Shown one piece after another: positions 31,562 through 60,316 of a DNA stretch of 64,000 bases. The translations under genes and the position numbers were made by a program. The first letter of the stretch is position 1. Every line of letters starts with the position of its first letter. The notes below the pieces were generated by a model. That model saw only the letters and a program-made list of their open reading frames with translations, did no database searches and was not told where the DNA came from. The stretch lies in contig NZ_CP031165.1 in NCBI RefSeq assembly GCF_003344865.1, positions 868,001-932,000 of the forward strand. The letters run 5' to 3'. Origin of the DNA: Euzebya pacifica (GTDB lineage Bacteria; Actinomycetota; Nitriliruptoria; Euzebyales; Euzebyaceae).

Positions 31562-33589
31562 GTGAACGATCCCGATGACATCGAGGTCGTGGACCTGCGT
31601 CAGCTGGTCGACACGATCCCCCGCCAGCGCGAGCTCCTGCCTCCTTCGGAACTGAATGATCGCCCCCGCGGAGCGGCGCGCCATCGAGCTCGTCGCCCGT
31701 GGCTGCGCGCACTCGTCGGGGGCCTGGCCGTGTTCGGCATCGGCTGGGCGGTGCTGGCCGTCGTCTCGCTCGTGTCGCTGCGCGCGGACGTGCCCGGCAC
31801 CCGGGACGCCCTGCTGGACGCGCGGGCCGTCCTCAACGACGGCGATGTCGGCTCGGCAACCGACCTGTTCGACGTCGCGGCAGGGGACCTCCAGGACATC
31901 GCCGACCGTGTGAGCTCCCCCGTGGTGGCCCCGGTCCGCCTGATTCCCCACTACCGCCGAACCCTCGACGCGGTCGGCGACCTCGGACGAGCCGGTGGAC
32001 TGGCTGCCAGCGCCGCCGCGAAGGTGACCTCGGCGCTGGCCGAGGGCGAGGGTGGACTGGGGGCACTGACCCCGCGCGACGGCCGGATCCCCGTCCAGCG
32101 GATCGCCGAACTCGGACCGGTCCTGGAGGCAGCATCCGCCGATGTCGTGACGGCGCTGGAGATGGCGAGGGCGGTCCCGGCGACCGGGGTCGACGAGGCG
32201 GTGGCCGAGGGGCGTGCGGAGTTCATCGACATCATGGAACCGACGGCGGAGCAGCTGGCCCTCGGGGTCGAGATCACCCAGGTGCTGCCGGCGGTGTTCG
32301 GTGCCGACGAACCGCGGCGCTACGTGGTGATGGCCTCCAACCCCACCGAAGCACGTGGGACCGGCGGGTTCTTCGGCGCCTACGTCGTGATGGACGCCGT
32401 CGAGGGGGAGCTGTCGTTCGGCCGTGTGGGGGAGACCCTCGACCTGCCCGTGCCGGCTGATGGTTCCGTCGTGGAGTGGGTCGACCCCTCCTTGCAGGAG
32501 CGATGGGAGATCTACGGCGGGTCGACGCGCATCCGCAGCATCAACATGACGCCGGACTTCCCGTCCGCCGCGACGATGATCGAGCGGTACTGGGCAGCGG
32601 TCCTCGGCGAGGAGGTCGACGGTGTCATCGCCGTCGACCCCTACGCGTTCGAAGCGATGCTGGAGGTGAACGGACCGATCGAGCTGCCGGGGTTGGGGGA
32701 GATCGCTTCCGAGGACGTCGTGGAGTTCGTGAGCTACTCGGCGTACTCGCTGATCGGCAACCCCATCGAGCGCAAGCGACTGATCGGCAACGTTGCCGCA
32801 TCGACGCTGCAGGGGTTCCTCGATGGCCCCGGTGACGTGACGCCGAGCGATGTCCTGGACGCCCTCGGCCGGATGGCCCGTCGGGACAGCCTGCTGATCC
32901 ACTCCGCACGCCCCGCGGAGCAGGCCCTCCTGGAGCGGACGGGGCTGGCCGGCGAGCTGGACCACGGTGACGGGGACATGCTCGCCGTGATCCTGAACTC
33001 CGGCTCGGGCTCCAAGATCGACTACTTCCTCGACCGGACCGTGCGGTACGACGTGACGATGGGGGACGGGGGACGCGTCGACACCATCATCCGTGCGGGG
33101 TTCGTCAACAACGCCCCCGCCTCGGGTGAGCTGGCGTACATGATCGGGCCTCCCGACACCCCGGTGGACTTCGTGGCGGGGGACAACGTGGGGTACGTCT
33201 CGGTCTACGGCGCACCGGGGACGACGTTCCACGAGATTCCCGACATCGGGTACGGCGACTACGAGACCACCGAGTCCGTCGAGCTCGGGTATCCCGTGGC
33301 CTCCACCTGGATGCTGATCCCCTCGATGCGGTCCCGCGAGCTGATCTACTCCGCAACCACACCCGAGGCGTGGGAGCAGGACGGTGAGGACCGCGTCTAC
33401 CGACTCCGGTACGTGCACCAGGTCACGGTGAGGCCCACCGAGCTCCAGGTGCAGATCAGGATTCCGGACGGGTTCGAGCCCGTGGACCTTCCCGAGGACG
33501 TCGCCGTGGCGGACGGACACGTCACCATCGTCGAGCAACCACGTTCCGACCTCGACCTCGAGGTGCGCTTCCGGCCAGCCGGTCCTTGA
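31562..33589 (+). CDS. DUF4012 domain membrane protein
   Basis: The 675-residue protein has a cytoplasmic N-terminus (about 1-48), one transmembrane helix (about 49-72, LRALVGGLAVFGIGWAVLAV) and a large outside part. The DUF4012 signature follows: RRYVVMASNPTEARGTGGFF (about 259-278), ATMIERYWAAVLGEEVDGVI, then VILNSGSGSKIDYFLDRTVR and a beta-rich C-terminus. DUF4012 proteins are frequent in actinobacterial exopolysaccharide loci, but their biochemical function is unknown. GTG 31562 is supported by TACGCT 6 bases upstream. The Wzz/kinase gene follows after 36 bases with its own box. Confidence 0.88.
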   Translation: MNDPDDIEVVDLRQLVDTIPRQRELLPPSELNDRPRGAARHRARRPWLRALVGGLAVFGIGWAVLAVVSLVSLRADVPGTRDALLDARAVLNDGDVGSATDLFDVAAGDLQDIADRVSSPVVAPVRLIPHYRRTLDAVGDLGRAGGLAASAAAKVTSALAEGEGGLGALTPRDGRIPVQRIAELGPVLEAASADVVTALEMARAVPATGVDEAVAEGRAEFIDIMEPTAEQLALGVEITQVLPAVFGADEPRRYVVMASNPTEARGTGGFFGAYVVMDAVEGELSFGRVGETLDLPVPADGSVVEWVDPSLQERWEIYGGSTRIRSINMTPDFPSAATMIERYWAAVLGEEVDGVIAVDPYAFEAMLEVNGPIELPGLGEIASEDVVEFVSYSAYSLIGNPIERKRLIGNVAASTLQGFLDGPGDVTPSDVLDALGRMARRDSLLIHSARPAEQALLERTGLAGELDHGDGDMLAVILNSGSGSKIDYFLDRTVRYDVTMGDGGRVDTIIRAGFVNNAPASGELAYMIGPPDTPVDFVAGDNVGYVSVYGAPGTTFHEIPDIGYGDYETTESVELGYPVASTWMLIPSMRSRELIYSATTPEAWEQDGEDRVYRLRYVHQVTVRPTELQVQIRIPDGFEPVDLPEDVAVADGHVTIVEQPRSDLDLEVRFRPAGP

Positions 33590-36845: not shown

Positions 36846-37586
36846 GTGGAACGCAAGCCAGCCCGAAGCGGCGCAGTCGACACCTTGCGCGGGGACCACT
36901 CCGCAACCGGCACGGTCATCGACCTGCGCGAGTTCGGCGACCCCCTGGACGGACCACTCCCCGGTGGCATCGAGGTCGCCGGTGGTCGCTACATACGCCG
37001 CGTCAAGCCCGTCATCGACTGGCTCCTGGCGTTGGTTGCGCTGATCCTGGTCCTGCCGGTGATGGTGCTCGTGGCCACCGTCGTGTTCGTGAGCCTGGGC
37101 CGTCCGATCGTCCTGCGTCAGGAGCGCGTGGGCCGAGGCGGCCAGCTGTTCACGGTCTTCAAGTTCCGCACGATGCATCCGGACCGGCGGCGTCGTCCCG
37201 GGATGTTCGACGGTTCCGACCGGCGCAGGACGCACAAGCACCCGGAGGACCCGCGCCTCACCCCATCGGGACGGCTCCTGCGCAAGCTCTCGCTCGACGA
37301 GCTGCCCCAGCTGTTCAACGTCCTGCGGGGTGACATGAGCCTCGTGGGCCCCCGGCCGGAGCTGCCGCACATCGTCGACGCGTACTACGAGCCCTGGCAG
37401 CATCGCCGACACGCCGTCAAGCCGGGCATCACCGGCTTGTGGCAGATCTCCGAGCGCGGCAACGGCATGATGCACGAGCACGTCGACGTCGACCTCGACT
37501 ACGTGGACCAGGTGGGGCTGGGCACCGACCTCTGGATCATGGCCCGGACGCTGCCGGCCGCGCTGTCCTCTCGGCAGGGATACTGA
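36846..37586 (+). CDS. Priming sugar transferase (polyprenyl-phosphate sugar-1-phosphate transferase, WbaP/WcaJ type)
   Basis: The 246-residue membrane enzyme starts glycan assembly by moving a sugar-1-phosphate onto undecaprenyl phosphate. Only the C-terminal catalytic half of WbaP-like enzymes is present. A hydrophobic membrane segment (about 57-85, IDWLLALVALILVLPVMVLV) is followed by VLRQERVGRGGQLFTVFKFR, TMHPD, and KLSLDELPQLFNVLRGDMSL with VGPRPE and the C-terminal KPGITGLWQISERG. The short form is normal in many Gram-positives. GTG 36846 is favoured because TAGGAT lies 8 bases upstream; longer starts are possible. It is the last plus-strand gene before a convergent pair. Confidence 0.92.
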   Translation: MERKPARSGAVDTLRGDHSATGTVIDLREFGDPLDGPLPGGIEVAGGRYIRRVKPVIDWLLALVALILVLPVMVLVATVVFVSLGRPIVLRQERVGRGGQLFTVFKFRTMHPDRRRRPGMFDGSDRRRTHKHPEDPRLTPSGRLLRKLSLDELPQLFNVLRGDMSLVGPRPELPHIVDAYYEPWQHRRHAVKPGITGLWQISERGNGMMHEHVDVDLDYVDQVGLGTDLWIMARTLPAALSSRQGY

Positions 37587-40099: not shown

Positions 40100-41179
40100 A
40101 TGTCCCTGATGAAGGAAAGTGTTGCCGTGACGCAGACACCCCGAGCACTGGTGACGGGAATCACCGGCCAGGACGGGTCCTATCTCGCCGAACTCCTGCT
40201 GAGCAAGGGGTACGAGGTGCATGGTCTGGTTCGACGTGCGTCGACGTTCGGTACCGAACGCATCGACCACATGTACCTGGACCCCCACCTGGACTCGGCG
40301 CGGATGTTCCTGCACTTCGGCGATCTCTCCGACGGGAACTCGTTGTCGCGCATGGTGCAGGAGGTGCAGCCGACGGAGGTCTACAACCTGGGTGCGCAGT
40401 CCCACGTCGGGGTGTCGTTCAAGAACCCGATCTACACCGTTGACGTCGACGCGCTCGGCACGCTGCGGTTGCTCGAGGCATGTCGTCAGATGGCGACTCC
40501 GCCGCGGTTCTACCAGGCGTCGTCCTCGGAGATGTTCGGACAGGTCAGGGAGGTTCCCCAGTCCGAACGCACGCCGTTCCACCCTCGCAGCCCGTACGGC
40601 GCGGCCAAGGTCTACTCCTACTGGCAGGTCGTCAACTACCGGGAGGCCTACGGGATGCACTGCAGCAACGGCATCCTGTTCAACCACGAGTCGCCTCGTC
40701 GTGGCGAGACGTTCGTGACGCGGAAGATCACGCGGGCGGCGACGCGCATCAAGCTCGGCCTGCAGGAGAAGCTGTACCTGGGCAACCTCGACGCGCAGCG
40801 AGACTGGGGTTTCGCCGGTGACTACGTCGAGGCGATGTGGCTGATGCTGCAGCAGGACACGGGTGACGACTACGTGGTCGCGACCGGGGAGATGTACTCG
40901 GTCCGGGAGTTCGCCGAGCGGACGTTCGCGCTGCTCGACCTGGACTGGGAGCGCTACACCGGGATCGACGAGCGGTACATGCGGCCTGCCGAGGTCGAGG
41001 AGCTGCTTGGCGACGCCACCAAGGCGGAGGAACGACTCGGCTGGAAGCCGCGCACGTCCTTCGACGAGCTGGTGGAGATGATGGTCGCCTCCGACATGGA
41101 GCTGGCCAAGCGCGAGCGCGCACTGGTCGACGCCGGCCTGGCAACCGTGGAGTGGCAGGCGGGCACCCACCGTGAGTGA
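40100..41179 (+). CDS. gmd: GDP-mannose 4,6-dehydratase
   Basis: The 359-residue enzyme converts GDP-mannose to GDP-4-keto-6-deoxymannose, the first step to GDP-fucose. [20 protein letters not shown] (residues 16-35) binds NADP, then [16 protein letters not shown], and the catalytic group Ser142, Glu144, Tyr166 and Lys170 in [10 protein letters not shown] and [32 protein letters not shown] (about 176-195) and [19 protein letters not shown] are also family blocks. It overlaps fcl by 8 bases. ATG 40100 follows the -10 box, while ATG 40109 or GTG 40127 (near an AAGGA) could be used instead. Confidence 0.95.
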
Positions 41180-44010: not shown

Positions 44011-45200
44011 CGCCGGGGGACCAGCCGCTGCGCATCGGGATGTTGACCCCACTCAGCACCGGCCCGCTGACGCACCTCCTGGACGACCCGCCTGCCGACC
44101 TGCCCGCGGGCATCGGCGGTCCCGGCCCGACCGACCTCATCGCCGCCCTGGCGGCGGCAGGCCATCACGTCACCGCGATCTCGTTGTCCCCCGAAGCGGC
44201 GGCGCCCGTCAGGGCACGTGGGACGCACCTCGACCTGCGGCTCCTGCCGATGCGTGAGGAGCACCGAGGCCGCGACGCCTACGGGCCGGAGCGCAAGGCG
44301 CTCAGGGCCGAGCTCGACGGACTCGACGTCGACGTGGTGCATGCGCAGTGGACCTACGAGTACGCGTTGACCGCCCATCACGCCACCGTCCCCTACGTCG
44401 TGACGGTTCGTGACTGGACGCCCCAGGTCCTCCGGTACAACTTCATCCCCTACTGGCTGGTCAAGCTCGGGATGAACGCCGTCGTCCTGGGTCGCCGGCC
44501 ACACCTGACGACGCCGTCGCCGTCGGTGCTCCGTCGCCTCGGGCGCCTGGGCTTCCGCAACGTCCGGCACATCCCGAACGGGCTGCAGATCCAGGACATG
44601 GCCGTCGACCGGCCTCGGGAGGCACCGAAGGACCCCCCGGTGCTCCTGAGCGTGACCAACGAGTTCTCCGGACGCAAGAACACCGGGGCCCTGCTGCAGG
44701 CCTTCGCCATCATCCGTCGCCGTCATCCGGCTGCCGAGCTGCTCATGATCGGCAACGAGCACGGCCCCGGGGACGAGGCAGCCCGATGGGCAACCGAACG
44801 AGGACTGCACGTCGGGGTGCAGTTCCTCGGAGAGCAGTCCCGCAGCGAGGTGGTTGCGGCCATGGACGGGGCGGACCTCCTGGTCCATCCCGCGCGAGAG
44901 GAGCCGTTCGGCATCGTCGTGATCGAGGCGATGAGCCGGGGGTTGCCGGTCGTCGGCGGGACCAGGGCCGGCGGCGTGCCGTTCATCCTCGACGGGGGTG
45001 CTGCTGGTGAGCTGGTCGACGTCGACAACCCCGAGTCGATCGTGGCCGGCATCCTGACGCTGCTCGGCAACCGGTCTCGGTACGCCGAGTGCTCCACCGT
45101 CGGGCTGCAACGGGTCACCGAGGAGTTCGACGTCAGTCGTCTCGCCGAGCTGTACGTTCGGGCCTACCGCGATGCCATGGCTGGGCGCTGGGTGCGATGA
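44007..45200 (+). CDS. GT4 family glycosyltransferase
   Basis: The 397-residue GT-B enzyme starts RIGMLTPLSTGPLTHLLDDP and continues with VDVVHAQWTYEYALTAHHAT and VTVRDWTPQVLRYNF. The C-terminal domain has VLLSVTNEFSGRKNTGALLQ, LLMIGNEHGPGDEAARWATE, and HPAREEPFGIVVIEAMSRGL, the GT4 E-x7-E motif in its most typical form. It has a slightly longer N-terminal loop than its neighbour. Its partner genes overlap on both sides by 4 bases, and the flippase gene follows. Confidence 0.9.
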   Translation: MTPGDQPLRIGMLTPLSTGPLTHLLDDPPADLPAGIGGPGPTDLIAALAAAGHHVTAISLSPEAAAPVRARGTHLDLRLLPMREEHRGRDAYGPERKALRAELDGLDVDVVHAQWTYEYALTAHHATVPYVVTVRDWTPQVLRYNFIPYWLVKLGMNAVVLGRRPHLTTPSPSVLRRLGRLGFRNVRHIPNGLQIQDMAVDRPREAPKDPPVLLSVTNEFSGRKNTGALLQAFAIIRRRHPAAELLMIGNEHGPGDEAARWATERGLHVGVQFLGEQSRSEVVAAMDGADLLVHPAREEPFGIVVIEAMSRGLPVVGGTRAGGVPFILDGGAAGELVDVDNPESIVAGILTLLGNRSRYAECSTVGLQRVTEEFDVSRLAELYVRAYRDAMAGRWVR

Positions 45201-46747
45201 CCGACACCGGGGACGCCGCCGAGCCGAACCTGACGCGTCGAACCCTGGGAGGCTTCTCCTGGAGTGTCGGTGGCCGTGTCCTGGGCCTGGTGGCGCAGAT
45301 CGCCTACACCTCGGTGATGGCCAGGCTCCTGACGCCCGAGCTGTTCGGCATCATGGCAAGCGCCCAGGTGGTCCTGCTGGCCGGCCAGATCCTGGCCGAG
45401 CTCGGCATCGGCCGGGCACTGGTGCAGGCCGACGAGCTGTCGACCGAGCAGGTGCGAGCGGCGTTCACCGCCAGCGTGGGGTTGGGCGTCGTGCTCACGG
45501 GAGTCCTCGTGCTGGCCGCACCGGCGGTGGGGCTGCTCTTCGATGATCCGGCGGTCACGTCGGTGACCCGGGTGATGGCGACGGTGCTGATCTTCATCAC
45601 GCTGGGCCTCACTGCCGAGGCGATGCTCCTCCGCTCCATGCGCTTCAAGCAAGTGGCGTTGCTGGAGCTCGGTGCCTTCGTCGTCGGGTACCTCTTCGTG
45701 GGCATCGGCGCCGGCCTCGCGGGGGCCGGGGTCTGGTCGTTGGTCGCCGCGGCAGTGACCAAGGCGGCGGTCTTCACCATCGGGTGCCTGCTGGTGGCGC
45801 GTCACCCGATGCGTCCCATGCTGGCCTGGAGCAGGGTTCGGTCCCTGTATGCCTTCGGCTCCCAGGTCTCGGTGATCTCCGTTGTGGAGTACCTGACCCT
45901 CGCCCTTCCCCCGACCGCGATCAGTCGCGCGCTCGGCCAGGCGCAGCTGGGTCAGTTCAACCAGGGCAACCGCATCGTCGAGCTGCCCTTCGTCAACATC
46001 TCCCAGGCCCTCTCCGACGTGCTGTTCCCCGCGATGGCACGTGTCAAGGAGGATCGTCAACGCATGGCAGGGGCGTACCTGACTGCCCTGCAGGTGACGG
46101 CTGGCCTCCTGCTGCCGTGTGCAGCGGGGCTGGCCGTGGCCTCCGACGAGATCGTGCTGGTCCTGCTGGGCGACCAGTGGGGGCCGGCTGCCGCGGTGTT
46201 GCCGCTGCTGGCGTTCCAGCCGGTCGTGCTCATGCTGAGCCACTACGGGGGCGTCGTCTGTGAGGCCCTGGGAACCCTGGGTGCCAAGCTCGCCATCCAG
46301 GTGGTCACCCTCCTGTTGCTGGCGGCGGGCTTCGGGCTGACCGGTACCCACGGTCTTCTGGCCATGGTCCTGGCGATGCTCGTCGTCCGTGTGCTCCGGT
46401 TTGTCGCGTATCTTGCGCTCATGCACCGGATACTGCCGCTCGGGCACGCCGATCAACCCGTTGCGCTCCTGGGGGGCCTGGCCGCGTCTGCGGTGGTTGC
46501 CGCCGCCATATGGGGATGGACCAGCTTGGCCCATTCGTTGGGCATCGTCGTCCCTGTCGTGCTGGCCGGCCAGGTCCTGGTCGGGGCCGTCGCGTTGACC
46601 GCGAGCGCGTTCTACGGGCCCCTGCGGGGTACGCGAGACGTCTTCGTCCAGCGGCTGGAATGGGCGGGTATCGGGGCTGGCGGGCCGGGGGGCCGCCTGC
46701 TGCGCGTGCTGCGCACGGGACAGCCGGAGAGCGCTGCGCGCCCATGA
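45197..46747 (+). CDS. Wzx-type flippase (MOP superfamily polysaccharide exporter)
   Basis: The 516-residue membrane protein has about 12-14 transmembrane helices throughout. LTRRTLGGFSWSVGGRVLGL and VMARLLTPELFGIMASAQVV (residues 13-60) match the MOP/RfbX family N-terminus, and FGSQVSVISVVEYLTLALPP with LGQAQLGQFNQGNRIVELPF follow the half-repeat. It would flip the lipid-linked repeat unit across the membrane before Wzy polymerises it. The ATG overlaps the preceding transferase and its stop overlaps the next (ATGA). Confidence 0.93.
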   Translation: MTDTGDAAEPNLTRRTLGGFSWSVGGRVLGLVAQIAYTSVMARLLTPELFGIMASAQVVLLAGQILAELGIGRALVQADELSTEQVRAAFTASVGLGVVLTGVLVLAAPAVGLLFDDPAVTSVTRVMATVLIFITLGLTAEAMLLRSMRFKQVALLELGAFVVGYLFVGIGAGLAGAGVWSLVAAAVTKAAVFTIGCLLVARHPMRPMLAWSRVRSLYAFGSQVSVISVVEYLTLALPPTAISRALGQAQLGQFNQGNRIVELPFVNISQALSDVLFPAMARVKEDRQRMAGAYLTALQVTAGLLLPCAAGLAVASDEIVLVLLGDQWGPAAAVLPLLAFQPVVLMLSHYGGVVCEALGTLGAKLAIQVVTLLLLAAGFGLTGTHGLLAMVLAMLVVRVLRFVAYLALMHRILPLGHADQPVALLGGLAASAVVAAAIWGWTSLAHSLGIVVPVVLAGQVLVGAVALTASAFYGPLRGTRDVFVQRLEWAGIGAGGPGGRLLRVLRTGQPESAARP

Positions 46748-47811: not shown

Positions 47812-47864
47812 GTCCTCCTCACGAGTGCGGCTCTCGCCCCACCGGGGGAGGCTCGTGGGCGCGA

Positions 47865-47878: not shown

Positions 47879-49378
47879 GTGTTCGCCGTGCTCTGCCCCG
47901 CCCGTGGCCCCCGCCGCCATCGGTGGAGGTTCGTCGTCGTTGTCGTGCTGGTGATGCTGTCGGCCTGTACCGCCACCGGTCCTGCAGACCGGGCGACCAC
48001 GGGCGGCCCGACGACCGTTCGACTCGAGGTCGGTGACCGGTTCGACCGGGTCGTCGCGAACAGCCCTGTGGGGTCCACCTTCGTGATCGCCACAGGCGTG
48101 CACCGACGACAGTTCGTCGCCCCGAGGGACGGTGACGTCTTCGTCGGTGAGGACGGCGCAGTCGTCAGCGGCGCGACCGTGCTCGATCCGGCGGCGTTCC
48201 GGCCTCAGGGGGGCCTTTGGGTGATGGAGGATCGCCACGAGGAACCCTTCCGGGCCGACAACGGCCAGCTCCACGGGGCGATGGAGGACGGTCGCGCCCG
48301 TGATGCCGCCAACCACGATCTGTGGGTGGACGACGTGCGGCTGCAGCACGTGGAAACCCTCGACGACCTGGACCAGGCGGGGGAGTGGTACTTCGACTAC
48401 GGGTCCGATCAGCTGTGGCTGGGCGCCAGGCCGGACGAGTCGACGCCCATGGAGCTGGCCGTGCAACCCGACTTCGTGCGGCCCACCGACGCCGAGGACG
48501 TGTCGATCAGCAACGTGACCCTCCGGCGCTTCGCCACACCGGCCCAGCACGGGGTCATCCACGCTGGTGGCCCCCGATGGACCATCAGCGACGTCGCGGT
48601 CGAGGAAAGTCATGGGACGGGCATCGTCGTGGGCGACGACACCGTGCTCGAGGACAGCATCGTGGTGGACAACGGCCAGCTCGGCGTCGGCGCCGACGGC
48701 GCCCGGGGTGTGGTGGTCCGCAACACCGAGATCGCCCGCAACGGGCAGCTGGGCTACCTGTGGGCGTGGGAGGCAGGGGGCCTGAAGTTCAAGGACACCG
48801 CCGACACCCGCCTGGAAGGCAACCACGTCCACGACAACCACGGTCCGGGCATCTGGTACGACCTGGGCAACACCGCGGCGCTCGTCGACGGCAACCGCGT
48901 CGAGGACAACGACGTGATGGGCATCTTCTACGAGATCTCCTCCGACGCGACGATCCGGGACAACGAGGTCCTCGGGAACGGCCACGCGGAGGGGATCGGC
49001 ACGCTGGGTGCGGGGATCTTCGTCTCCATCTCCTTCGACGTCCTCATCGAGGGCAACATCACTGCGGGGAACAACCAGGAGATCGTCCTGGTCCACGCCG
49101 ATCGTCGTGAGGAGATCGGGGAGGAGTACGGGGTGCGCGATGTCGTGGTTCGCCGGAACCGTGTCACCATCGACAACGACGGTTCCGTCGGGCTCTACGT
49201 CGACACGGACGAGGACGAGTACTACACCGACCGGGGCAACCGCTTCGAGGACAACACCTACGTGCTGGACGGCTGCGAACGCTGCTTCCTGTGGGAGGAG
49301 CCGGTGGACCTCGCGACGTGGCAGGAGCTTGGCAACGACCTCGGCGTGAACCCCGAGATCCGTGACGGAGGACCCTAG
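47879..49378 (+). CDS. Right-handed parallel beta-helix lipoprotein
   Basis: The 499-residue product has a lipoprotein signal with lipobox LSA-Cys at Cys30, after a strong hydrophobic stretch. The mature protein starts with a conserved module containing FVAPRDGDVFVGEDGAVVSG (about 80-100) and EWYFDYGSDQLWLGA (about 171-185). A beta-helix of about 250 residues follows, with turns such as NTEIARNGQLGYLWAWEAGG and VHDNHGPGIWYDLGN, rich in Asn and Gly. It shares its core with the proteins at 50732 and 53329. Related folds include polysaccharide lyases, epimerases and adhesins; enzymatic activity is inferred, not shown. The Wzy gene begins 3 bases downstream. Confidence 0.85.
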   Translation: MFAVLCPARGPRRHRWRFVVVVVLVMLSACTATGPADRATTGGPTTVRLEVGDRFDRVVANSPVGSTFVIATGVHRRQFVAPRDGDVFVGEDGAVVSGATVLDPAAFRPQGGLWVMEDRHEEPFRADNGQLHGAMEDGRARDAANHDLWVDDVRLQHVETLDDLDQAGEWYFDYGSDQLWLGARPDESTPMELAVQPDFVRPTDAEDVSISNVTLRRFATPAQHGVIHAGGPRWTISDVAVEESHGTGIVVGDDTVLEDSIVVDNGQLGVGADGARGVVVRNTEIARNGQLGYLWAWEAGGLKFKDTADTRLEGNHVHDNHGPGIWYDLGNTAALVDGNRVEDNDVMGIFYEISSDATIRDNEVLGNGHAEGIGTLGAGIFVSISFDVLIEGNITAGNNQEIVLVHADRREEIGEEYGVRDVVVRRNRVTIDNDGSVGLYVDTDEDEYYTDRGNRFEDNTYVLDGCERCFLWEEPVDLATWQELGNDLGVNPEIRDGGP

Positions 49379-49380
49379 GA

Positions 49381-50700
49381 ATGGGAATCGAACTACTGGC
49401 AATCCTCGGCGGATTCGGCTTGCTCGGACTGCTCGTGATGGATCTGACGCTGGAGCGTCAGGACACGCCGTGGTTGTTCGTGTGTGCCATCGCCCTGGCC
49501 CGCGAGGTCAGCGATCCCCTCCCGTCGATCTCGGCGGCCGGACTGGCGATCAACGGCGAGGACATCCTCCTGGCCGTGGCCCTGCTGGTCGTGGGGGGTT
49601 GGGTCCTGCGCGGCATCGCGGTACAGGTTCCCCAGCTCCTCCTGATCGGTGCCCTGGGCCTGGCGATGTTCTCGGTGCTGCGCGGTGGCGCGGTCTACGG
49701 CCTGCCGGGCGCGATCAACGAGGCCCGCGAGACGCTGTACTTCATCGCCGGTGCGCTGCTTGGCAGCTTCGTCCCCGTCGGTGCCGAGGCGCGACGCCGG
49801 TTGATGCGCGGGTGGCTGTTCCTCGCCGCGTCGCTGACCGCCTTGGCCGTCCTCAGATGGGGCATCGTGTTCGCCGGACTGCCCTTCACTGGTCCGTGGT
49901 ACGAGACCGAGTTCGGTGGCCTTCGGGTGCTGTCGAGCAACGGGACGCTGGTCATCACCATCGCGTTCCTGACCCTCCTGCCCCGAACCCTCCGGGGCAT
50001 CGCGACAGACCTCGAGCGCCTCCTCGTGGCGGGGTTCGGGGCCACGGTCCTGCTGCTCCAGCACCGCTCGGTGTGGATCGTCTTCGTGCTCGGCACCGCG
50101 TTCATGGTGGTGGAGTACCGCAAGCAGATGTCCCGCGGGGTGATCATGGGTGCAGGTGTGGCCATGGTCGTGGTCGGGTTGACCGCCCTGACCTACCTGA
50201 ACGTCTCCGAGCTCTCCGACAGCGCCACCGAGGCCGACGCGGCGAGCGACACCACCTGGGAGTGGCGGGTCTCGGGCTGGGGGGACCTGCTCGACCACGG
50301 CCCCGAGGGCGTGCTCGAATGGGGCATCGGGGTGCCGTACGGCGCCGGCTGGAACCGGTCGGTGTCGGCGGGCTTCGATGTCGACGTGCCGCCCCACAAC
50401 TTCTACCTGGAGATGGTCCTGCGGATCGGCGTGCTCGGGATCGGGTTCATCCTGGTCGCGGGCATCGAGTCAGCACGACGGCTTCGCGCCCACGAGCTCG
50501 ACGTGGACGACGGGTACTTCAACGCCGTGACCATGCAGGTGATCCTGCTGTCACAGGCCCTGTACTCCATTCCCTACAACCTGGGCATGGAACAGGGCCT
50601 GCTGCTCGGGCTCGCGATCGCCATCTGGGCCGATCCGCTGCGCCGCGAGGGCAAGGGCATGCACGTCGTCGCGCCCAACCCCGCGATCGTGCGGCGCTGA
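49381..50700 (+). CDS. Wzy polymerase/O-antigen ligase-like membrane protein
   Basis: The 439-residue protein has about 10-11 transmembrane helices and an extracytoplasmic loop between the later ones (about 275-345). The loop carries WEWRVSGWGDLLDHGPEGVL, GIGVPYGAGWN and PHNFYLEMVLRIG, a pattern of Arg-Gly and His-Asn residues seen in Wzy/WaaL proteins. It probably polymerises repeat units or ligates the glycan. Family members diverge strongly, so the exact role rests on topology and context beside a flippase and co-polymerase. A hairpin terminator follows immediately. Confidence 0.86.
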   Translation: MGIELLAILGGFGLLGLLVMDLTLERQDTPWLFVCAIALAREVSDPLPSISAAGLAINGEDILLAVALLVVGGWVLRGIAVQVPQLLLIGALGLAMFSVLRGGAVYGLPGAINEARETLYFIAGALLGSFVPVGAEARRRLMRGWLFLAASLTALAVLRWGIVFAGLPFTGPWYETEFGGLRVLSSNGTLVITIAFLTLLPRTLRGIATDLERLLVAGFGATVLLLQHRSVWIVFVLGTAFMVVEYRKQMSRGVIMGAGVAMVVVGLTALTYLNVSELSDSATEADAASDTTWEWRVSGWGDLLDHGPEGVLEWGIGVPYGAGWNRSVSAGFDVDVPPHNFYLEMVLRIGVLGIGFILVAGIESARRLRAHELDVDDGYFNAVTMQVILLSQALYSIPYNLGMEQGLLLGLAIAIWADPLRREGKGMHVVAPNPAIVRR

Positions 50701-50726
50701 TGCTGGGGACCGAGCGGTCCCCAGCA
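50701..50726. terminator. Bidirectional hairpin terminator
   Basis: TGCTGGGGACC (50701-50711) pairs perfectly with GGTCCCCAGCA (50716-50726) across a four-base loop, immediately between the convergent Wzy-like and cell-wall-binding genes. Confidence 0.75.
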
Positions 50727-50731
50727 GTGGA

Positions 50732-53257
50732 TCAGGATGCGCCGTAGGGGACCGTGGTGAACGGACTCGGGGGCTGGAAGGCCGCGACGTTGACGTCCAG
50801 GAACCGCCCGTTGCGGTCGTGTCCGAACTCGTCCTGCCACTCCGGCACAGTGACCTTGCGTCCCATCCAGAAGTGCTCCGTGTGGTCGGCGCGGAGGCGA
50901 TAGACGTTGTCCTCCCACACGATGTCGTCGCGGTAGTACCGCTGCGGCTCGTTGGTCCGGACGCGAAGGCCGGGCAGGTAGGCGTCGATGCGGATGTCGT
51001 TGTCGTGGACGTACAGCTCGGCGATCTCCAGGTTGCCGTGCTCGCCGGCGGGGATGCCGTTGTGGTTGGCGACGATCGGCAGGCGGTTGCTCTCGAAGAC
51101 GTTCCAGGCCAGCTCCACGCCGGGGCTGTTGGCGACCCAGATGCCGCTGCCGAGGTCGCCGTAGGCGAGCGCGCCGTTGGTCCGCACGATGTTGGAGTGG
51201 GCCAGGGCGCCCGAGGTCTCCTCGATGAGGATCCCGGCTGCGTAGTTGTGCTCGGAGAGGTTTGAGATCCAGCTGGGGTCGGCGCAGTCGAGGTCGCACC
51301 ACAGGCCCGCGCCGCGGTTGTGGTGGGACCAGTTCTGCTCGAACACCGAGTCGATGGTGTTGGTCAGCTTGGCGCCGCCGGCTTCCCACCCCATCCGGTA
51401 GCCGACCTCGCCGTTGAAGGCGATCTCGTTGCGGAGGATGGAGACGGGTGACTGGGTCTCGTCGTACCGGTGGTCGCCACCGGTGATGCCGATCTGCCCG
51501 TTGTGCACCAGGCGTGAGTCGGCCACGACCGCGCCCGAGCCGGTCCGCACGGCGGCGGACTTGGACTGCGCGACCGTCACGTGGTGGATGAACCAACGCA
51601 GGCCGTTGTGGGCGTCGATCGCGCCGGCCTTGGACTGCGAGGCGTACCGGTTCACCGTCAGGTGGTCGATCTCGACGTCCTCCGCAGCGGACTGGAATGC
51701 CCAGGGCGCCACCGACAGCTCGATCGCACCCAGGGTGGCGGGGTCCTGCAGGAGCAGGATGCGGTCACCGGCGACGTCGAAGTGCCACTGGCCGACGCGG
51801 GTCAGCGTCTCGACGGTCCCGGTGTGGGTCAGGCGGTGACGGCCGGCGAAGAGGTCGGTCTGGATGGCCTCGCCCTCACGGCCGGACTCCATGCCGGCGT
51901 CGGAGTCCTCGACGTGGGTGCTGGGGGGCGGCGGCGGGTCGAACGTCACACCGGGGATGACCCACCGGCCGGCCTCGTCCTGGAAGGCCTGGGCGACGTT
52001 GGGGGCAAGGCTGATGCTGCCCTTCAGGACCGCACCCTCCTCACCGGTGAAGCGGTCGCCATCGCGGGGCACGACCTGGACCAGCTGGTGCTCGCCGGCG
52101 GTGAAGACGAACGTGGTGCCCTCCGGGTGGGCGTCGACCACGGCCTGGGCGTTGTCGCCGGGGGAGATGCGAACGCCGGCCGGCGGGGTCCAGGCCGGGC
52201 GGGGCATGGCGCGGTCGACGAGCTCGAAGTCGATGGTCGTCGGCAGCCCGTCGCGGTGACCGACGATGTTGACTCGATCGGCTCCGGGCAGGGCCGCCAG
52301 GACCCAGTCCCGCCCGATGGAGGTCTCCCAGACGTGCGGGTTGACGTAGAGCAGCACACCGTCGGTGATGGCGGCGGCGGTACCGGCCACGAGGGCGTCC
52401 TGCCAGTTCTCGCCGTTGACCAGCCACAGGTTGTCGGTGACGCCCCCGGCTGCGACCGCGGCGTCCGCCACGGCGATGGAGGTGTGGTACCGGGACACGC
52501 CGTCGAGGCGGTCGACCCGGTCCACGAGGGCCCAGAGCTGGTCGGAGACGTCCTGGTTGACGGCCGCCTCGCCGCCGATGATCGTCACGGTGTCGGCCCC
52601 GTCGGCTGCCAGCGCGGCTGCCGACTCGTCGGGCAGGTCGGTCACGCGGGACAGCAGCACCGGGGCGCCGAGGGATGCAGCGTGCTGCGAGACCGCAACC
52701 GCGTCCTCCCAGCCGCCGATGTGGCCAGCACCCTCGCCGCGGACCAGGAAGGGATCCCCGTCCCCACCGTTGGCGCGCACGAAGTCCATCGCGGCCGCTG
52801 CGGTGGCGAAGCGGTTCGGACCGGCGATTCGCTCGATCGTCTGGACACCCCAGCGGCGCAGCTCGGCGACCACGTCCTCGCTGATGGCCGCGGTACCGCC
52901 CATCAGGACCGCGCGGCGGGGGGCGAAGTGCTCGATCTGCTCCCACACCAGCCGCGGCATGGCATCGCGATCCGTCAGCAGCAGCGGCGCGTCGAGCAGG
53001 GCGGTGATGGGCGCTGCGGACAGCGCGTCGGCGAACTCATCGGTCCGGGCCAGGACCACCGTGTCGGTGTCGGGCCAGACCCGACGGGCGACCGTGGTGC
53101 TGACCTCTTCTCCGGTCGTCCCCTCGAATCGTTCGACGGCCCAGCCGGGATCCTGCGCCGCAACGGGCGCAACCGGAACGACCGCCAGGACTGCGATCAG
53201 GAGAAGGGTGGACAGGACTGTGCGGCGCAGCCGCGGGGCGGAGACATCTGCGATCAT
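50732..53257 (-). CDS. Cell-wall-binding repeat (PF04122) protein fused to beta-helix domain
   Basis: The 841-residue secreted protein has a signal peptide (about 1-35). The first half (about 40-330) contains three cell-wall-binding type 2 repeats, marked by IAGPNRFATAAAAMDF, GVSRYHTSIAVADAAV and an initial FEGTTGEEVSTTVARRV. The second half (about 390-830) is a beta-helix with the same module as the gene at 47879: PRDGDRFTGEEGAVLKGS, QWHFDVAGDRIL, GYRMGWEAGGAKL, GAGLWCDLDC and GDLGSGIWVANS. Wall repeats should hold the beta-helix on peptidoglycan or a secondary polymer. ATG 53257 is 9 bases from TACTGT on the minus strand. Confidence 0.9.
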   Translation of the reverse strand: MIADVSAPRLRRTVLSTLLLIAVLAVVPVAPVAAQDPGWAVERFEGTTGEEVSTTVARRVWPDTDTVVLARTDEFADALSAAPITALLDAPLLLTDRDAMPRLVWEQIEHFAPRRAVLMGGTAAISEDVVAELRRWGVQTIERIAGPNRFATAAAAMDFVRANGGDGDPFLVRGEGAGHIGGWEDAVAVSQHAASLGAPVLLSRVTDLPDESAAALAADGADTVTIIGGEAAVNQDVSDQLWALVDRVDRLDGVSRYHTSIAVADAAVAAGGVTDNLWLVNGENWQDALVAGTAAAITDGVLLYVNPHVWETSIGRDWVLAALPGADRVNIVGHRDGLPTTIDFELVDRAMPRPAWTPPAGVRISPGDNAQAVVDAHPEGTTFVFTAGEHQLVQVVPRDGDRFTGEEGAVLKGSISLAPNVAQAFQDEAGRWVIPGVTFDPPPPPSTHVEDSDAGMESGREGEAIQTDLFAGRHRLTHTGTVETLTRVGQWHFDVAGDRILLLQDPATLGAIELSVAPWAFQSAAEDVEIDHLTVNRYASQSKAGAIDAHNGLRWFIHHVTVAQSKSAAVRTGSGAVVADSRLVHNGQIGITGGDHRYDETQSPVSILRNEIAFNGEVGYRMGWEAGGAKLTNTIDSVFEQNWSHHNRGAGLWCDLDCADPSWISNLSEHNYAAGILIEETSGALAHSNIVRTNGALAYGDLGSGIWVANSPGVELAWNVFESNRLPIVANHNGIPAGEHGNLEIAELYVHDNDIRIDAYLPGLRVRTNEPQRYYRDDIVWEDNVYRLRADHTEHFWMGRKVTVPEWQDEFGHDRNGRFLDVNVAAFQPPSPFTTVPYGAS

Positions 53258-53266
53258 CGACGCTGA

Positions 53267-53272
53267 ACAGTA
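53267..53272 (-). promoter_or_regulatory. -10 hexamer TACTGT, leaderless layout
   Basis: On the minus strand TACTGT (53272 to 53267) ends 9 bases before ATG 53257 of the wall-binding beta-helix gene. Confidence 0.45.
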
Positions 53273-53304
53273 ACCGCCGCGGTTGCGAATCCAGCGTGTC
53301 GGCG

Positions 53305-53323
53305 GTACAGGCTGGCCCTGTAC
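53305..53323 (-). terminator. Short hairpin after the soluble beta-helix gene
   Basis: GTACAGG (53305-53311) pairs with CCTGTAC (53317-53323) with a five-base loop, just past the stop at 53329 on the minus strand. No T-tract. Confidence 0.35.
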
Positions 53324-53328
53324 TCGGC

Positions 53329-54924
53329 TCAGGCCGCGTGGCCGTATCCTACGGGCGCGTAGGGGGTGCGGACGCCGGTGCTGCCGTTGCCGGCGGCGGC
53401 GAAGGAGCCGTTGACGTCGAAGCCGAGGGCCTGCCACTGGTCCCAGCTGCGGTCGCCCTGCCACCAGAAGGTGGTGCCGGCCTCGGACAGGTCGTAGGTG
53501 TTGTCCCGGAAGGTGTTGCCACGCTCGGTGTAGAAGTGGTCCTCACCGGTGTAGACCCGCAGGCCCGTCGGCTTCTCGCCGGTGATGCGGATGTGGTTGT
53601 GGTGGACGTCGAGTCCGTGGGTCTCATAGCGGCCGTGGGCGCCGGCACCGCGCTCGTAGTGCGTCGCGAGGATGTCGAGCCGGTTGTCGGCGATCTCGTT
53701 GTGGTGGATCTCCACGTTGGAGGAGTTGGAGACCCAGATGCCGGCCCCGATGTCGCCGTAGCCCTCCGCACCGTTGTCGCGGATCGTGTTGTCGCTGATC
53801 TCGGCGCCGTAGCTGATCTCGATGTTGACGCCGATCAGGTTGTCCTCGGCCAGGTTGGAGCGGATGACGGAGTCACGGTTGTCGATGTCGAACCAGATTC
53901 CCGTGCCGTCGTTGTGGTGGACCCAGTTGTTGGAGAACACCATGCCGGTCGTCTCCTTGAACTTGGTGCCACCGGCCTCCCAGCCCAGGCGGTACTGCAG
54001 GGTGCGGTTGTGGGCGATCTCGTTGGAGTCCACGACGATCCCCTCGCCGTACCAGGCGGTCACGCCGATCTGTCCGTTGGCGGTGATCCGCGAGTGGCTG
54101 AGCGTGCCGAACGGGCCGATCAGGACGCCGCCGCCGTGGTTCTCGGTGACGGTCGTGTGGCGCACCGTCCAGCCGTGGCCCTGGGCGTGGATGGCGCCGT
54201 GCTGGGCGGGGGAGCCGTACCGGGTCACGGTCACGTGCTGCACGGTGACGCCGGTGGCCTCGCTGCGGAAGGCGTGCCACGGGACGCTCAGGGACAGGGA
54301 CGCGCTGGCCGGGTCGACACCGACGACGACCTCGTCGCGCTCGTAGTCGAAGAACCACTCGTCGGGGCTGTCCACCTCGCCGCGCGAGTTGACGTGGTTC
54401 AGGCGGGTGTCGCCGTTCCAGAGGTCGTTGTTGGCGGCGTGACGCTCGAAACCGTCCTCCGTCGATCCGTGGAACCGGCCGTTGTGGACGAAGGCCTCCG
54501 CGGTCTGTCCGGCGGCAACCCAGACGCCACCGGACCGGGAGAAGTCGCCGGCCCGCAGCGGGACGGTTCCGTCCAGGACCGCGCCGGCGTCACCGGTGAA
54601 GGTGTCGCCGTCGCGGGGGGTGACGCTCTGCCCGCGGTGGACACCGGCAGCGATCCGGAAGTGGGTGCCGGCCGGGTGGGCGGCGACGACGGCCGCGAAG
54701 TCGTCGCCCAGCTCGAGCACGACCTCCTCACCGGTGCGAGCCGGCGGGGCGACCGGGGCCAGGCCCTCGGCGTAGGTGTTGTCCGTGGTGTCCTCCGTGG
54801 ATGCCGACGTGCCTCGGCGGCTGTAGTACTCCTGGGCGCTGGCGGCCGGGGCGGCCAGGGCAACGACGAGGAGGGTCAGCAGGGCGACGGCCCAAGTGCG
54901 GTTACGGTTGGTAGAGGAGGACAT
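53329..54924 (-). CDS. Secreted right-handed parallel beta-helix protein
   Basis: The 531-residue protein has a Sec signal peptide (about 1-30, ending APAASA-Q). It lacks both the lipobox of the 47879 protein and the wall repeats of the 50732 protein, but shares their core: TPRDGDTFTGDAGAVLDG (about 101-118), EWFFDYERDEVVVG, LQYRLGWEAGGTKFKET, NDGTGIWFDIDN and GDIGAGIWVSNSSNVEIHH. Beta-helix repeats extend to about residue 480. It may act on the exported glycan as a lyase, epimerase or glycosidase, or be structural. It lies upstream of the wall-anchored paralogue in the same direction. An inverted repeat lies next to its start. Confidence 0.87.
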   Translation of the reverse strand: MSSSTNRNRTWAVALLTLLVVALAAPAASAQEYYSRRGTSASTEDTTDNTYAEGLAPVAPPARTGEEVVLELGDDFAAVVAAHPAGTHFRIAAGVHRGQSVTPRDGDTFTGDAGAVLDGTVPLRAGDFSRSGGVWVAAGQTAEAFVHNGRFHGSTEDGFERHAANNDLWNGDTRLNHVNSRGEVDSPDEWFFDYERDEVVVGVDPASASLSLSVPWHAFRSEATGVTVQHVTVTRYGSPAQHGAIHAQGHGWTVRHTTVTENHGGGVLIGPFGTLSHSRITANGQIGVTAWYGEGIVVDSNEIAHNRTLQYRLGWEAGGTKFKETTGMVFSNNWVHHNDGTGIWFDIDNRDSVIRSNLAEDNLIGVNIEISYGAEISDNTIRDNGAEGYGDIGAGIWVSNSSNVEIHHNEIADNRLDILATHYERGAGAHGRYETHGLDVHHNHIRITGEKPTGLRVYTGEDHFYTERGNTFRDNTYDLSEAGTTFWWQGDRSWDQWQALGFDVNGSFAAAGNGSTGVRTPYAPVGYGHAA

Positions 54925-57728: not shown

Positions 57729-59009
57729 GTGACCGACACCCACACACCCAGCCCAGTTGTCGCTGACGCTCCGACGGCACCGGTCCAGACGTGCCGTTCC
57801 TGCGCGGCCCCGCTGTCACACACCCTGGTCGACCTGGGGCTGTCGCCGTTGTGCGAGACCTTCATCGACGCGGCCGATGCCGAACGCGGCGAGGTCTTCT
57901 ATCCCCTCCGGGCGATGGTCTGTGACGGCTGCTGGCTGGTCCAGGTCGGCGACTACGTCGCCCCCGATGTCATCTTCGACGACACCTACCCGTACTTCGC
58001 CTCCTACTCCGACTCGTGGCTCGCCCACGCCCGGCGGTACGTGGACGCCATGGTCGACCGGTTGCAGCTCGACGAGTCGAGCCGCGTGGTCGAGGTCGGC
58101 TCCAACGATGGCTACATGCTGCAGTACATGGTGCAGCGCGGGATCCCGTCGCTGGGGGTCGATCCGACCGCGAACACCGCCGCCGCAGCCAAGGAGAAGG
58201 GGGTCGACACCCTCGTGGACTTCTTCGGCCTCGACGTGGCCAAGCGGCTGGTCGCCGAGGGATGGTCCGCGGACCTGGTTGCCGGCAAGAACGTCATGGC
58301 CCAGGTTCCCGACCTCAACGACTTCGTGGCCGGGCTCGCCGAGCTGGTCTCGCCCACGGGCACGGTGACCATCGAGTTCCCCCACCTCGTGACCATGATC
58401 GAGGAGCTGGAGTTCGACACGATCTATCACGAGCACTTCTCCTACTTCTCCCTCGTGGCGGTCCAGGACGTCTACGCCCGGCACGGGCTCGTCGTGACCG
58501 ACGTCGAGGAGCTGTCGACCCACGGCGGATCGCTGCGCGTGTACGCCCAGCGATCCGACGGGAATCCGGACGTGGCGCCCTCCGTCGACGCGCTGCTTGC
58601 CCGGGAACGCGAGCTCGGGGTCGACACGCTGGCCTTCTACGAGGACTTCGCGGGCGACGTCGCGCGCATCCGCCACGAGCTCGTCGGCTTCCTGCAGGAC
58701 GCCAGGGCGCAGGGCAAGCACGTGGTGGGCTACGGCGCCCCGGGCAAGGGCAACACCCTGCTCAACCACGCCGCCATCCGCAGCGACCTCCTGGAGTACC
58801 TCGTCGACCGGAACCCCGTGAAGCACGGGCGGCTCACCCCGGGTACGCGCATTCCCATCTTCCCGCCGGACCGGCTCGCGGAGACCAAGCCCGACGTGAT
58901 CCTGATCATGCCGTGGAACCTGCGTGAGGAGATCGCTGCCCAGCTGGCCTACACCAGGGAGTGGGGTGCCGAGCTGATGGTCGCGATCCCCCAGCTGACC
59001 ACGCTGTGA
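57729..59009 (+). CDS. Sugar-nucleotide C-methyltransferase (TylCIII/TcaB9 type)
   Basis: The 426-residue enzyme has the three-part layout of C-3 or C-5 sugar methyltransferases: a zinc domain (Cys22, Cys25, Cys65, Cys68), a SAM domain with VVEVGSNDG (about 120-128), and a C-terminal Methyltransf_14 domain with VVGYGAPGKGNTLLNHAAI. Tyr233-His234-Glu235-His236 in IYHEHFSYFS fits the Y-x-E-H catalytic motif of TcaB9. Such enzymes methylate a ring carbon next to a keto group on a nucleotide-activated deoxysugar. It is co-translated with the DUF4910 gene (GTGA) and starts the sugar module. Confidence 0.9.
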   Translation: MTDTHTPSPVVADAPTAPVQTCRSCAAPLSHTLVDLGLSPLCETFIDAADAERGEVFYPLRAMVCDGCWLVQVGDYVAPDVIFDDTYPYFASYSDSWLAHARRYVDAMVDRLQLDESSRVVEVGSNDGYMLQYMVQRGIPSLGVDPTANTAAAAKEKGVDTLVDFFGLDVAKRLVAEGWSADLVAGKNVMAQVPDLNDFVAGLAELVSPTGTVTIEFPHLVTMIEELEFDTIYHEHFSYFSLVAVQDVYARHGLVVTDVEELSTHGGSLRVYAQRSDGNPDVAPSVDALLARERELGVDTLAFYEDFAGDVARIRHELVGFLQDARAQGKHVVGYGAPGKGNTLLNHAAIRSDLLEYLVDRNPVKHGRLTPGTRIPIFPPDRLAETKPDVILIMPWNLREEIAAQLAYTREWGAELMVAIPQLTTL

Positions 59010-60316
59010 TCGGTGGGGACGGCAGCTCGATGGTGGACGGTGACACGCTCCTCACCCGTGCGGCCACCGTCGTCGACATCCCACGGTCGCTGACCGGTGA
59101 CGGGGTCCGGCAACTGCTGGACGTGATCGGTGACTGGGTGCCGGGTCTGCAGCAGGTCGAGGTCCCGACGGGTACGGAGGTGCTGGACTGGACGGTGCCC
59201 GAGGAGTGGAACCTGCGCAGGGCGACGCTGACGGGCCCCGACGGCACCGTGGTGGCCGACTCCGCGCGCAGCCCGCTGGAGGTCGTGGGGTACTCCGTCC
59301 CCGTCGACACCCGGCTCGGCCTGGCCGACCTCGAGGACGGCCATCTCCACAGCCTTCCCGATCAGCCCGACCTCGTGCCCTGGCGCACCAGCTACTACCG
59401 CCGGACCTGGGGGTTCTGCATCCCCGACCGGGTGCGCCGGGACCTGCCGGAGGGCGACTACCACGCGCGGGTCGACGCCACCCTCGAACCCGGCCACCTG
59501 ACCTGGGGCGAGCTGGTCGTCCCCGGCGAGACCACCGAGGAGGTGCTCGTCACCGCGCACCTCTGTCACCCGGCGATGGCCAACGACAACGCGTCGGGCC
59601 TGGTGGTTGCCGCAGCCGTGGCCGAGGCGCTCGCCGCCCGTCCGACGCGGAGGCGGACACATCGCTTCCTGTTCGCACCCGGGACCATCGGGGCCGTGGC
59701 CTGGCTCGCGACCCGGCCCGACGTCGTCAGCCGGGTCGTCGGTGGGGTGGTCATCTCGGGGGTGGGTGACCCGGGAACGTCGTTGACCTACAAGCGCTCG
59801 CGTCGCGGATCCGCCCCCATGGACACCGCGATGCGCCTGGCCCTGCGTGACGCGGAGGTCGAGCACACGCTGGTCGACTACGCCCCCTGGGGGTATGACG
59901 AGCGGCAGTTCAACTCGCTCGGCTACGACCTCGGCGTCGGGTTGCTGAACCGGACGCCACACGGGACCTACCCCGAGTACCACACCTCCGCCGACGACCT
60001 GTCCTTCCTGCGGGCTGCGCACCTCGAGGAATCCGCATCGCTGGTCCTGGCGGGGTTGGATGCGCTCGAGGCACACCGTCCCGTGCGCAACCTCAAGCCG
60101 CACGGGGAGCCGCAGCTGGGTCCCCGCGGACTGTGGCCCAGCATCGGCGGGGCAACCGGACGGCGCGCCCAGATGGCCCTGCTGTGGGTCCTGGCGGAAG
60201 CCGACGGCGAGCGAACCGTGCTCGACGTCGCCGACCGTGCCGGCCTGCCGGTCGCCGAGGTCATGGCGGCCGCGACGCAGCTCGCCGGCACCGACCTCCT
60301 GGAGTTCGGCGGCTGA
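59006..60316 (+). CDS. DUF4910 domain protein, M28-like aminopeptidase fold
   Basis: The 436-residue protein belongs to a family of aminopeptidase-like proteins often found in glycan clusters. The zinc-peptidase fold is seen in VLVTAHLCHPAMANDNASGL (residues 180-199), with His185, His188 and Asp194 as likely metal ligands. DERQFNSLGYDLGVGLLNRT and YPEYHTSADDLSFLRAAHLE (about 325-345) are other conserved blocks. A winged-helix-like tail (about 385-436) follows. Role in sugar biosynthesis is unknown; amide hydrolysis on an amino-sugar intermediate is conceivable. GTG 59006 overlaps the methyltransferase stop; ATG 59030 is an alternative. Confidence 0.82.
   Translation: MIGGDGSSMVDGDTLLTRAATVVDIPRSLTGDGVRQLLDVIGDWVPGLQQVEVPTGTEVLDWTVPEEWNLRRATLTGPDGTVVADSARSPLEVVGYSVPVDTRLGLADLEDGHLHSLPDQPDLVPWRTSYYRRTWGFCIPDRVRRDLPEGDYHARVDATLEPGHLTWGELVVPGETTEEVLVTAHLCHPAMANDNASGLVVAAAVAEALAARPTRRRTHRFLFAPGTIGAVAWLATRPDVVSRVVGGVVISGVGDPGTSLTYKRSRRGSAPMDTAMRLALRDAEVEHTLVDYAPWGYDERQFNSLGYDLGVGLLNRTPHGTYPEYHTSADDLSFLRAAHLEESASLVLAGLDALEAHRPVRNLKPHGEPQLGPRGLWPSIGGATGRRAQMALLWVLAEADGERTVLDVADRAGLPVAEVMAAATQLAGTDLLEFGG

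Follow-up and report, generated by a model that had tools for sequence, protein, structure and literature searches.

The 64,000-nucleotide stretch of the Euzebya pacifica genome analysed here (contig NZ_CP031165.1, positions 868,001 to 932,000; hereafter the window) holds three genes for beta-helix proteins, arranged around a gene for a Wzy-like protein of the polymerase / O-antigen ligase family (49381-50700, plus strand; Pfam Wzy_C, E 6.6e-10). The gene of the first, P0001 (47879-49378), lies on the plus strand and ends 2 bases before the wzy gene; an alternative upstream start at 47825 is possible. The gene of the second, P0003 (50732-53257), is on the minus strand and converges on wzy, with its end 31 bases past it. 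That of the third, P0004 (53329-54924), likewise on the minus strand, is the next one beyond, upstream of the P0003 gene. We refer to the products as the membrane-anchored, the wall-anchored and the secreted paralogue, respectively.

Three differently anchored paralogues

The three products are true paralogues. Pairwise BLASTP gives identities of 43%, 40% and 35% (E 6e-108, 2e-88 and 4e-62), and all five motifs PRDGDxFxG, WxFD, WEAGGxK, GxG[IL]WxD and G[AS]GIxV[AS] occur in every one of them at the translated coordinates. The first-pass annotation had claimed that this module is common to the three and found nowhere else in the window, and both halves of the claim stand, as a family profile run on all open reading frames of the window matches these three only. 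A search of the whole genome (6.37 Mb in two contigs, the one with the window measuring 5.80 Mb) adds one further member at C1:1085257-1086759; the family is thus not unique to the polymer locus. This fourth paralogue is a lipoprotein on a long branch, in a conserved non-polymer neighbourhood that is common to two species (L034 9222-10751 for the E. pacifica gene and L033 9264-10895).

The anchors read from the sequence at first pass were recovered as well. P0001 has a predicted lipobox, LSAC, ending at Cys30. P0003 carries a signal peptide followed by three stretches of CWB2 cell-wall-binding repeats (PF04122, E 3e-33; about residues 35-348, encoded at 52214-53155 on the minus strand), and its beta-helix core starts at residue 349. 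P0004 has a signal peptide (MSS...ASA-Q) and no other anchor. The counterparts of P0001 in three relatives of the same genus (G001, G002 and G003) are apparently anchored by a transmembrane segment instead of a lipobox, and the conserved property therefore seems to be membrane attachment rather than lipidation. CWB2 serves this organism as a general-purpose surface anchor on a very large scale; at least 155 such repeats were counted in the whole genome in the part of the candidates that was scored.

Fold and candidate active site

Apart from the CWB2 repeats of the second product, Pfam assigns the paralogues to the general Beta_helix and NosD families. A copper-type NosD assignment was rejected, the NCBIfam NosD scores being 14-28 bits against a cut-off of 300. 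The common beta-helix fold, named at first pass, is borne out by two high-confidence AlphaFold2 models, which predict a right-handed beta-helix for the cores of P0004 (m89ab2869ce62, pLDDT 92.6) and P0003 (mc33e4988ca6d, pLDDT 92.7). The top Foldseek match of both cores is 3vst, a beta-xylosidase of glycoside hydrolase family GH120 (E 2.1e-12 for P0004 and 3.6e-10 for P0003), and the second is BT_1002 of family GH141 (E 7.9e-8 and 7.4e-7).

The same xylosidase is found first when the PDB is searched with a family profile built from 20 cores of the class to which E. pacifica belongs (E 3e-10), and the alignment is in register across the catalytic segment. Because the epimerases AlgE4 and AlgE6 follow close behind as second and third matches (E 1.3e-8 and 8.7e-8), significance alone is not decisive and the residues have to be considered. 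By residue counting in the 3vst alignment, H352, E353, K358, W380, D382 and E405 of the xylosidase, TsXylC, stand opposite W315, E316, K321, W344, D346 and E369 of P0004. Catalysis by TsXylC relies on Asp382 as nucleophile and on Glu405 as acid/base, and alanine mutants of the equivalent residues are inactive in three GH120 enzymes (PMC8954004). According to a review, BaXylB carries Trp in place of His352, which agrees with the WE of the window family (PMC6887791).

The Asp and Glu positions of GH120 type are filled in all three paralogues. The candidate active site of P0004 comprises E316, K321, W344, D346 as nucleophile (codon 53887-53889, minus strand) and E369 as acid/base (codon 53818-53820, minus strand). 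In P0001 the alignment points to E298, K303, W326, D328 (nucleophile) and E352 (acid/base), and in P0003 to E625, K630, W653, D655 and E679. In the P0004 model, D346 and E369 end two consecutive equivalent strands (core positions 291-296 and 314-319), which would place them on the same helix face, one rung apart. The first-pass annotation had looked to conserved acidic and basic residues of this kind, and they do occupy matching positions on neighbouring rungs. Among 124 members of the family from many phyla, D346 is found in 124, W344 in 123 and E369 in 122, and K321 is present in all 123 readable members. Since the scan pattern by which distant members were fetched contains W344 and none of D346, K321 and E369, the conservation of the latter three is not an artefact of the search.

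Comparison of profiles leads to the same family. Three GH120 proteins served as controls (L117-L119, of which L119 matches 3vst at E 4.5e-131), and hhalign aligns the family of the class to them co-linearly over 341 columns with 99.2% probability and E 1.4e-19; for the wide family the value is E 1.5e-21. As controls of the opposite kind we used further beta-helix proteins encoded in the genome. Against the class profile they score E 4e-7 to 0.04, against the wide one 2.5e-4 to 1.4e-3, and their alignments cover shorter stretches.

The characterised GH120 enzymes (TsXylC, with structures 3vst/3vsu/3vsv, Lr-XylC and Bp-XylX) thus resemble the window family in the right-handed beta-helix, in the 23 residues that separate nucleophile from acid/base in both TsXylC and P0004, in the WE/HE, K and W neighbours of this pair and in two conserved Gln positions. 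They differ in overall sequence, identity being 13-15% in structural alignment, and in setting. Window-family proteins are released from the cell or anchored at its surface, and their genes are linked to loci for polymer synthesis; the characterised GH120 genes function in the use of xylo-oligosaccharides (PMC8954004). Position 241 (P0004 numbering) is Lys in the wall-anchored lineage, and Gln in the other two lineages, in most of the family and, by profile alignment, in GH120, which suggests that the wall-anchored form has a different specificity from the other two.

Other beta-helix enzymes were considered as well. GH141, which includes the fucosidase BT_1002 and the xylanase Xyn141E, is likewise a family of beta-helix glycosidases. 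The catalytic residues of BT1002 are Asp523 and Asp564 (PMC5593877), an Asp/Asp pair 41 residues apart in place of the Asp/Glu pair 23 apart of the window family, although this likeness is one of fold and not of a residue-by-residue alignment. The AlgE/AlgG C5-epimerases and the PL6 polysaccharide lyases share the overall beta-helix and have high Z scores in geometric comparison by VIA. The AlgE4 segment YGFDPHEQT, which we take to hold the catalytic Tyr149, Asp152 and His154, is not conserved in the window family and aligns with variable or Gly positions. As for PL6, which is recognised by a Lys and an Arg on neighbouring rungs, the window family has one invariant Lys, and R97 is its sole Arg at 80% conservation or above, as judged from conservation and not from a PL6 residue alignment. 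A phage tailspike origin was considered and found unsupported: matches in a library of viral structures are weaker (best E 7.7e-10, mostly tail proteins and depolymerases), and tblastn against phages gives one weak match only.

Lineages and distribution

No relatives were found when scanning with a single protein, and a profile was needed; the profile scan gave 79 loci. Trees were built from 62 members and, more carefully, from 31. In both, each window paralogue groups with its own counterpart in relatives. The wall-anchored lineage contains E. pacifica and the relatives G001 and G002, the secreted lineage the same three genomes, and the membrane-anchored lineage E. pacifica and G002, with the forms of G001 and G003 in the same group. 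The three lineages are therefore separately conserved within the genus, and G002 has the trio in identical gene order with wzy between.

On a larger scale, a single clade of all CWB2-fused members is rejected in the tree of 31 (p-AU 7e-47), so that wall-anchored forms are polyphyletic, and at least five changes of anchor are required in this tree. Sets of differently anchored paralogues recur, as genome G050 has its own lipoprotein and wall-anchored set and Acidimicrobiia (L042, L044, L045, L047 and L048) have tandem trios of two secreted members and one membrane-anchored member. The secreted forms of the latter are extended at the N-terminus by a module of about 270-320 residues, with a weak FG-GAP match in one. 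Four members in a row are found on an acidobacterial contig, a metagenome-assembled genome of Luteitalea (L038 5280-16022). Taken together, this is an uncharacterised family spread over many bacterial phyla.

Linkage to polysaccharide loci

The window contains a complete Wzx/Wzy exopolysaccharide locus (31562-62579, by Pfam annotation and gene calls), in which the three paralogues are embedded. As a marker of such loci we used the gene of the WecG/TagA/CpsF glycosyltransferase, present here in the sole copy of the genome (42149-42940, plus strand; PF03808, E 2.8e-55). Sixty-seven loci around family members are 14 kb or longer and were used for counting, and 37 of them have a WecG gene near the family, against 0.4 expected from genome density (PF03808 has one to three copies per family-bearing genome). 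Among 49 genomes of the class, the family occurs in 7 and WecG above the cut-off in 12. All 7 are among the 12, and in each of them WecG lies in the same neighbourhood of roughly 20 kb as a family member. Co-occurrence with glycan loci in related genomes, which the first-pass annotation had set as a check, is thus observed, including the syntenic trio and wzy of G002.

The linkage extends to distant bacteria. On plasmid pSR-2 of Skermanella, two members labelled as beta-helix proteins adjoin a WecB/TagA/CpsF transferase gene, in the neighbourhood of genes for a sugar transferase, a UDP-glucuronate decarboxylase and an acyltransferase. On p2 of Azospirillum brasilense (L114 9928-13422), one member adjoins genes for a GH15 protein and for several response regulators, and a comparable polymer cluster with WecG is some 9 kb away. 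In the literature searched, mostly outside subscription journals, we saw no mention of the family in connection with exopolysaccharide loci.

Several other genes of the E. pacifica locus were annotated. A Wzx-type flippase is encoded at 45197-46747 (plus strand; Polysacc_synt_3, E 3.4e-66). There are further a Wzc-like ATPase, a UDP-glucose/GDP-mannose dehydrogenase, an initiating sugar transferase at 36885, a GDP-mannose dehydratase at 40151, GT2/GT4 enzymes, a methyltransferase, an aminotransferase and a nucleotidyltransferase. A DUF4012 protein opens the locus (31562-33589) and has related genes in the polymer loci of L023 and L030, and a DUF4910/DUF2172/M28 peptidase-like protein is encoded inside it (59006-60316). 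A UDP-glucuronate decarboxylase-like gene (52% identity) is located elsewhere in the genome, and xylose is thus a possible, unproven component of the polymer. Scans for promoters and terminators gave results no better than chance.

Discussion

We consider it probable that the three proteins are secreted GH120-like retaining glycosidases which process the polymer of their locus, each at its own distance from the cell. Because the GH120 catalytic pair is conserved and the AlgE residues are absent, a retaining glycosidase is the best reading of the site. Each beta-helix would present an Asp nucleophile (in GIWxD) and, one rung on, a Glu acid/base (in GIxxE), flanked by WE and K, and by analogy to GH120 would break glycosidic bonds in a configuration-retaining reaction. 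New polymer delivered by Wzy would be met by the membrane-anchored enzyme; the CWB2 enzyme would work on polymer that is passing through the wall or lying on it, and the free enzyme on that of the matrix. Chain length, release and remodelling of the matrix might then be tuned by enzyme location. The first-pass annotation had proposed a glycan-modifying set at membrane, wall and matrix. Of this, the fold, the anchor lineages and the linkage to the locus now stand, and the activity, with its substrate and the presumed division of labour, is putative. Its candidate chemistry, a lyase or C5-epimerase, gives way to that of a retaining glycoside hydrolase, which is favoured by catalytic residues, profiles and Foldseek alike.

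Such a role has precedents. According to the PslG study, exopolysaccharide clusters often include hydrolase genes (PMC9075953), and in Actinoplanes the matrix hydrolases GimA and GimB are known to act on a polymer of Wzx/Wzy type (PMC13390465). These enzymes resemble our paralogues in that their genes accompany those for a secreted polysaccharide or their activity is directed at one, and make a polymer-processing role plausible. They differ from them in that neither source, as far as its available part goes, describes a GH120-like beta-helix or three paralogues with three anchors (PMC9075953, PMC13390465).

Several observations weigh against our proposal. E316 is less constant than its neighbours, being present in 111 of 123 members and replaced by D, Q, G, A or H in the other 12. 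A single-sequence phmmer search of the PDB with P0004 did not match 3vst. The Ig-like insertion domain of GH120, PF21258, is undetected at E 0.1 in the three window proteins, whereas all three GH120 controls have it (E 3e-19 to 4e-38). A shorter remnant of this region is possible, since the profile alignment spans it. For want of a match to the domain, we call the family a GH120-like sister family, not GH120. In VIA geometry, AlgE epimerases rank above 3vst for P0004 (Z 34.9 over 321 residues against 27.2 over 411), and for P0003 3vst is not among the first 50 rows. Fold alone thus cannot choose among beta-helix enzymes, and it is the catalytic residues that do; as the family does not conserve the catalytic segment of the epimerases, we read the epimerase ranking as shared fold. 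Finally, some members lie outside polymer loci, with WecG not nearby: the fourth paralogue, those of L024, L031, L026 and L028, and those of the Kribbella loci. Two of these (L024 14608-16068 and L031 9918-11381) are membrane-anchored members of two relatives, and their neighbours, judged by first residues only, look like trehalose or glycogen metabolism.

The members outside polymer loci, such as the fourth paralogue and those of Kribbella, would be expected if these GH120-like glycosidases act on other glycans, be it wall polymers, plant or algal xylan, or glycans of other microbes. The characterised GH120 enzymes cut xylo-oligosaccharides (PMC8954004, PMC6887791), and, with the decarboxylase-like gene elsewhere in the genome, the sugars of the polymer need not all follow from the genes of the locus. 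The strong and repeated linkage to WecG-type loci across phyla, with synteny that includes wzy, speaks for the polymer of the locus instead, and no xylose-use genes or importers are found among its Pfam-annotated genes. We therefore regard a different substrate as unlikely, if a serious alternative.

A related idea gives the same active site another outcome. The three enzymes might be mainly retaining transglycosylases. Chains taken from Wzy by the membrane form would be attached to a wall polymer by the wall form and linked in the matrix by the free form, so that one duplicated enzyme would carry the polysaccharide outwards from the membrane, by way of the wall, into the matrix. To this version we assign a slim chance.

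It is about equally doubtful that the paralogues are non-catalytic adhesins or glycan-binding matrix proteins which tether the polymer at the membrane, in the wall and in the matrix. Different anchors would suit cross-linking, and the beta-helix adhesin PfbA is among the Foldseek matches, but binding alone hardly accounts for an Asp, a Lys and a Glu that are invariant at GH120 catalytic positions in 124 sequences from many phyla. Least probable of all are polysaccharide lyases or C5-epimerases of PL6 or AlgE type, for although AlgE proteins are close in sequence search and best by VIA, and the UDP-glucose/GDP-mannose dehydrogenase suggests uronic acids, the conserved set of residues fits GH120.

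If our proposal is right, it assigns a catalytic site that can be tested, and a part in the exopolysaccharide loci of many phyla, to a large unnamed beta-helix family for which the annotated records of Azospirillum and Skermanella give no label but right-handed parallel beta-helix repeat protein. Why loci for polymer synthesis encode enzymes that cut polymers is called unresolved in the PslG study (PMC9075953). The E. pacifica locus would offer a natural experiment on this question, as the same enzyme has been kept at three cell locations, with wall anchoring gained or lost more than once in the family. Its members would also be candidate depolymerases for WecG-type polysaccharides.

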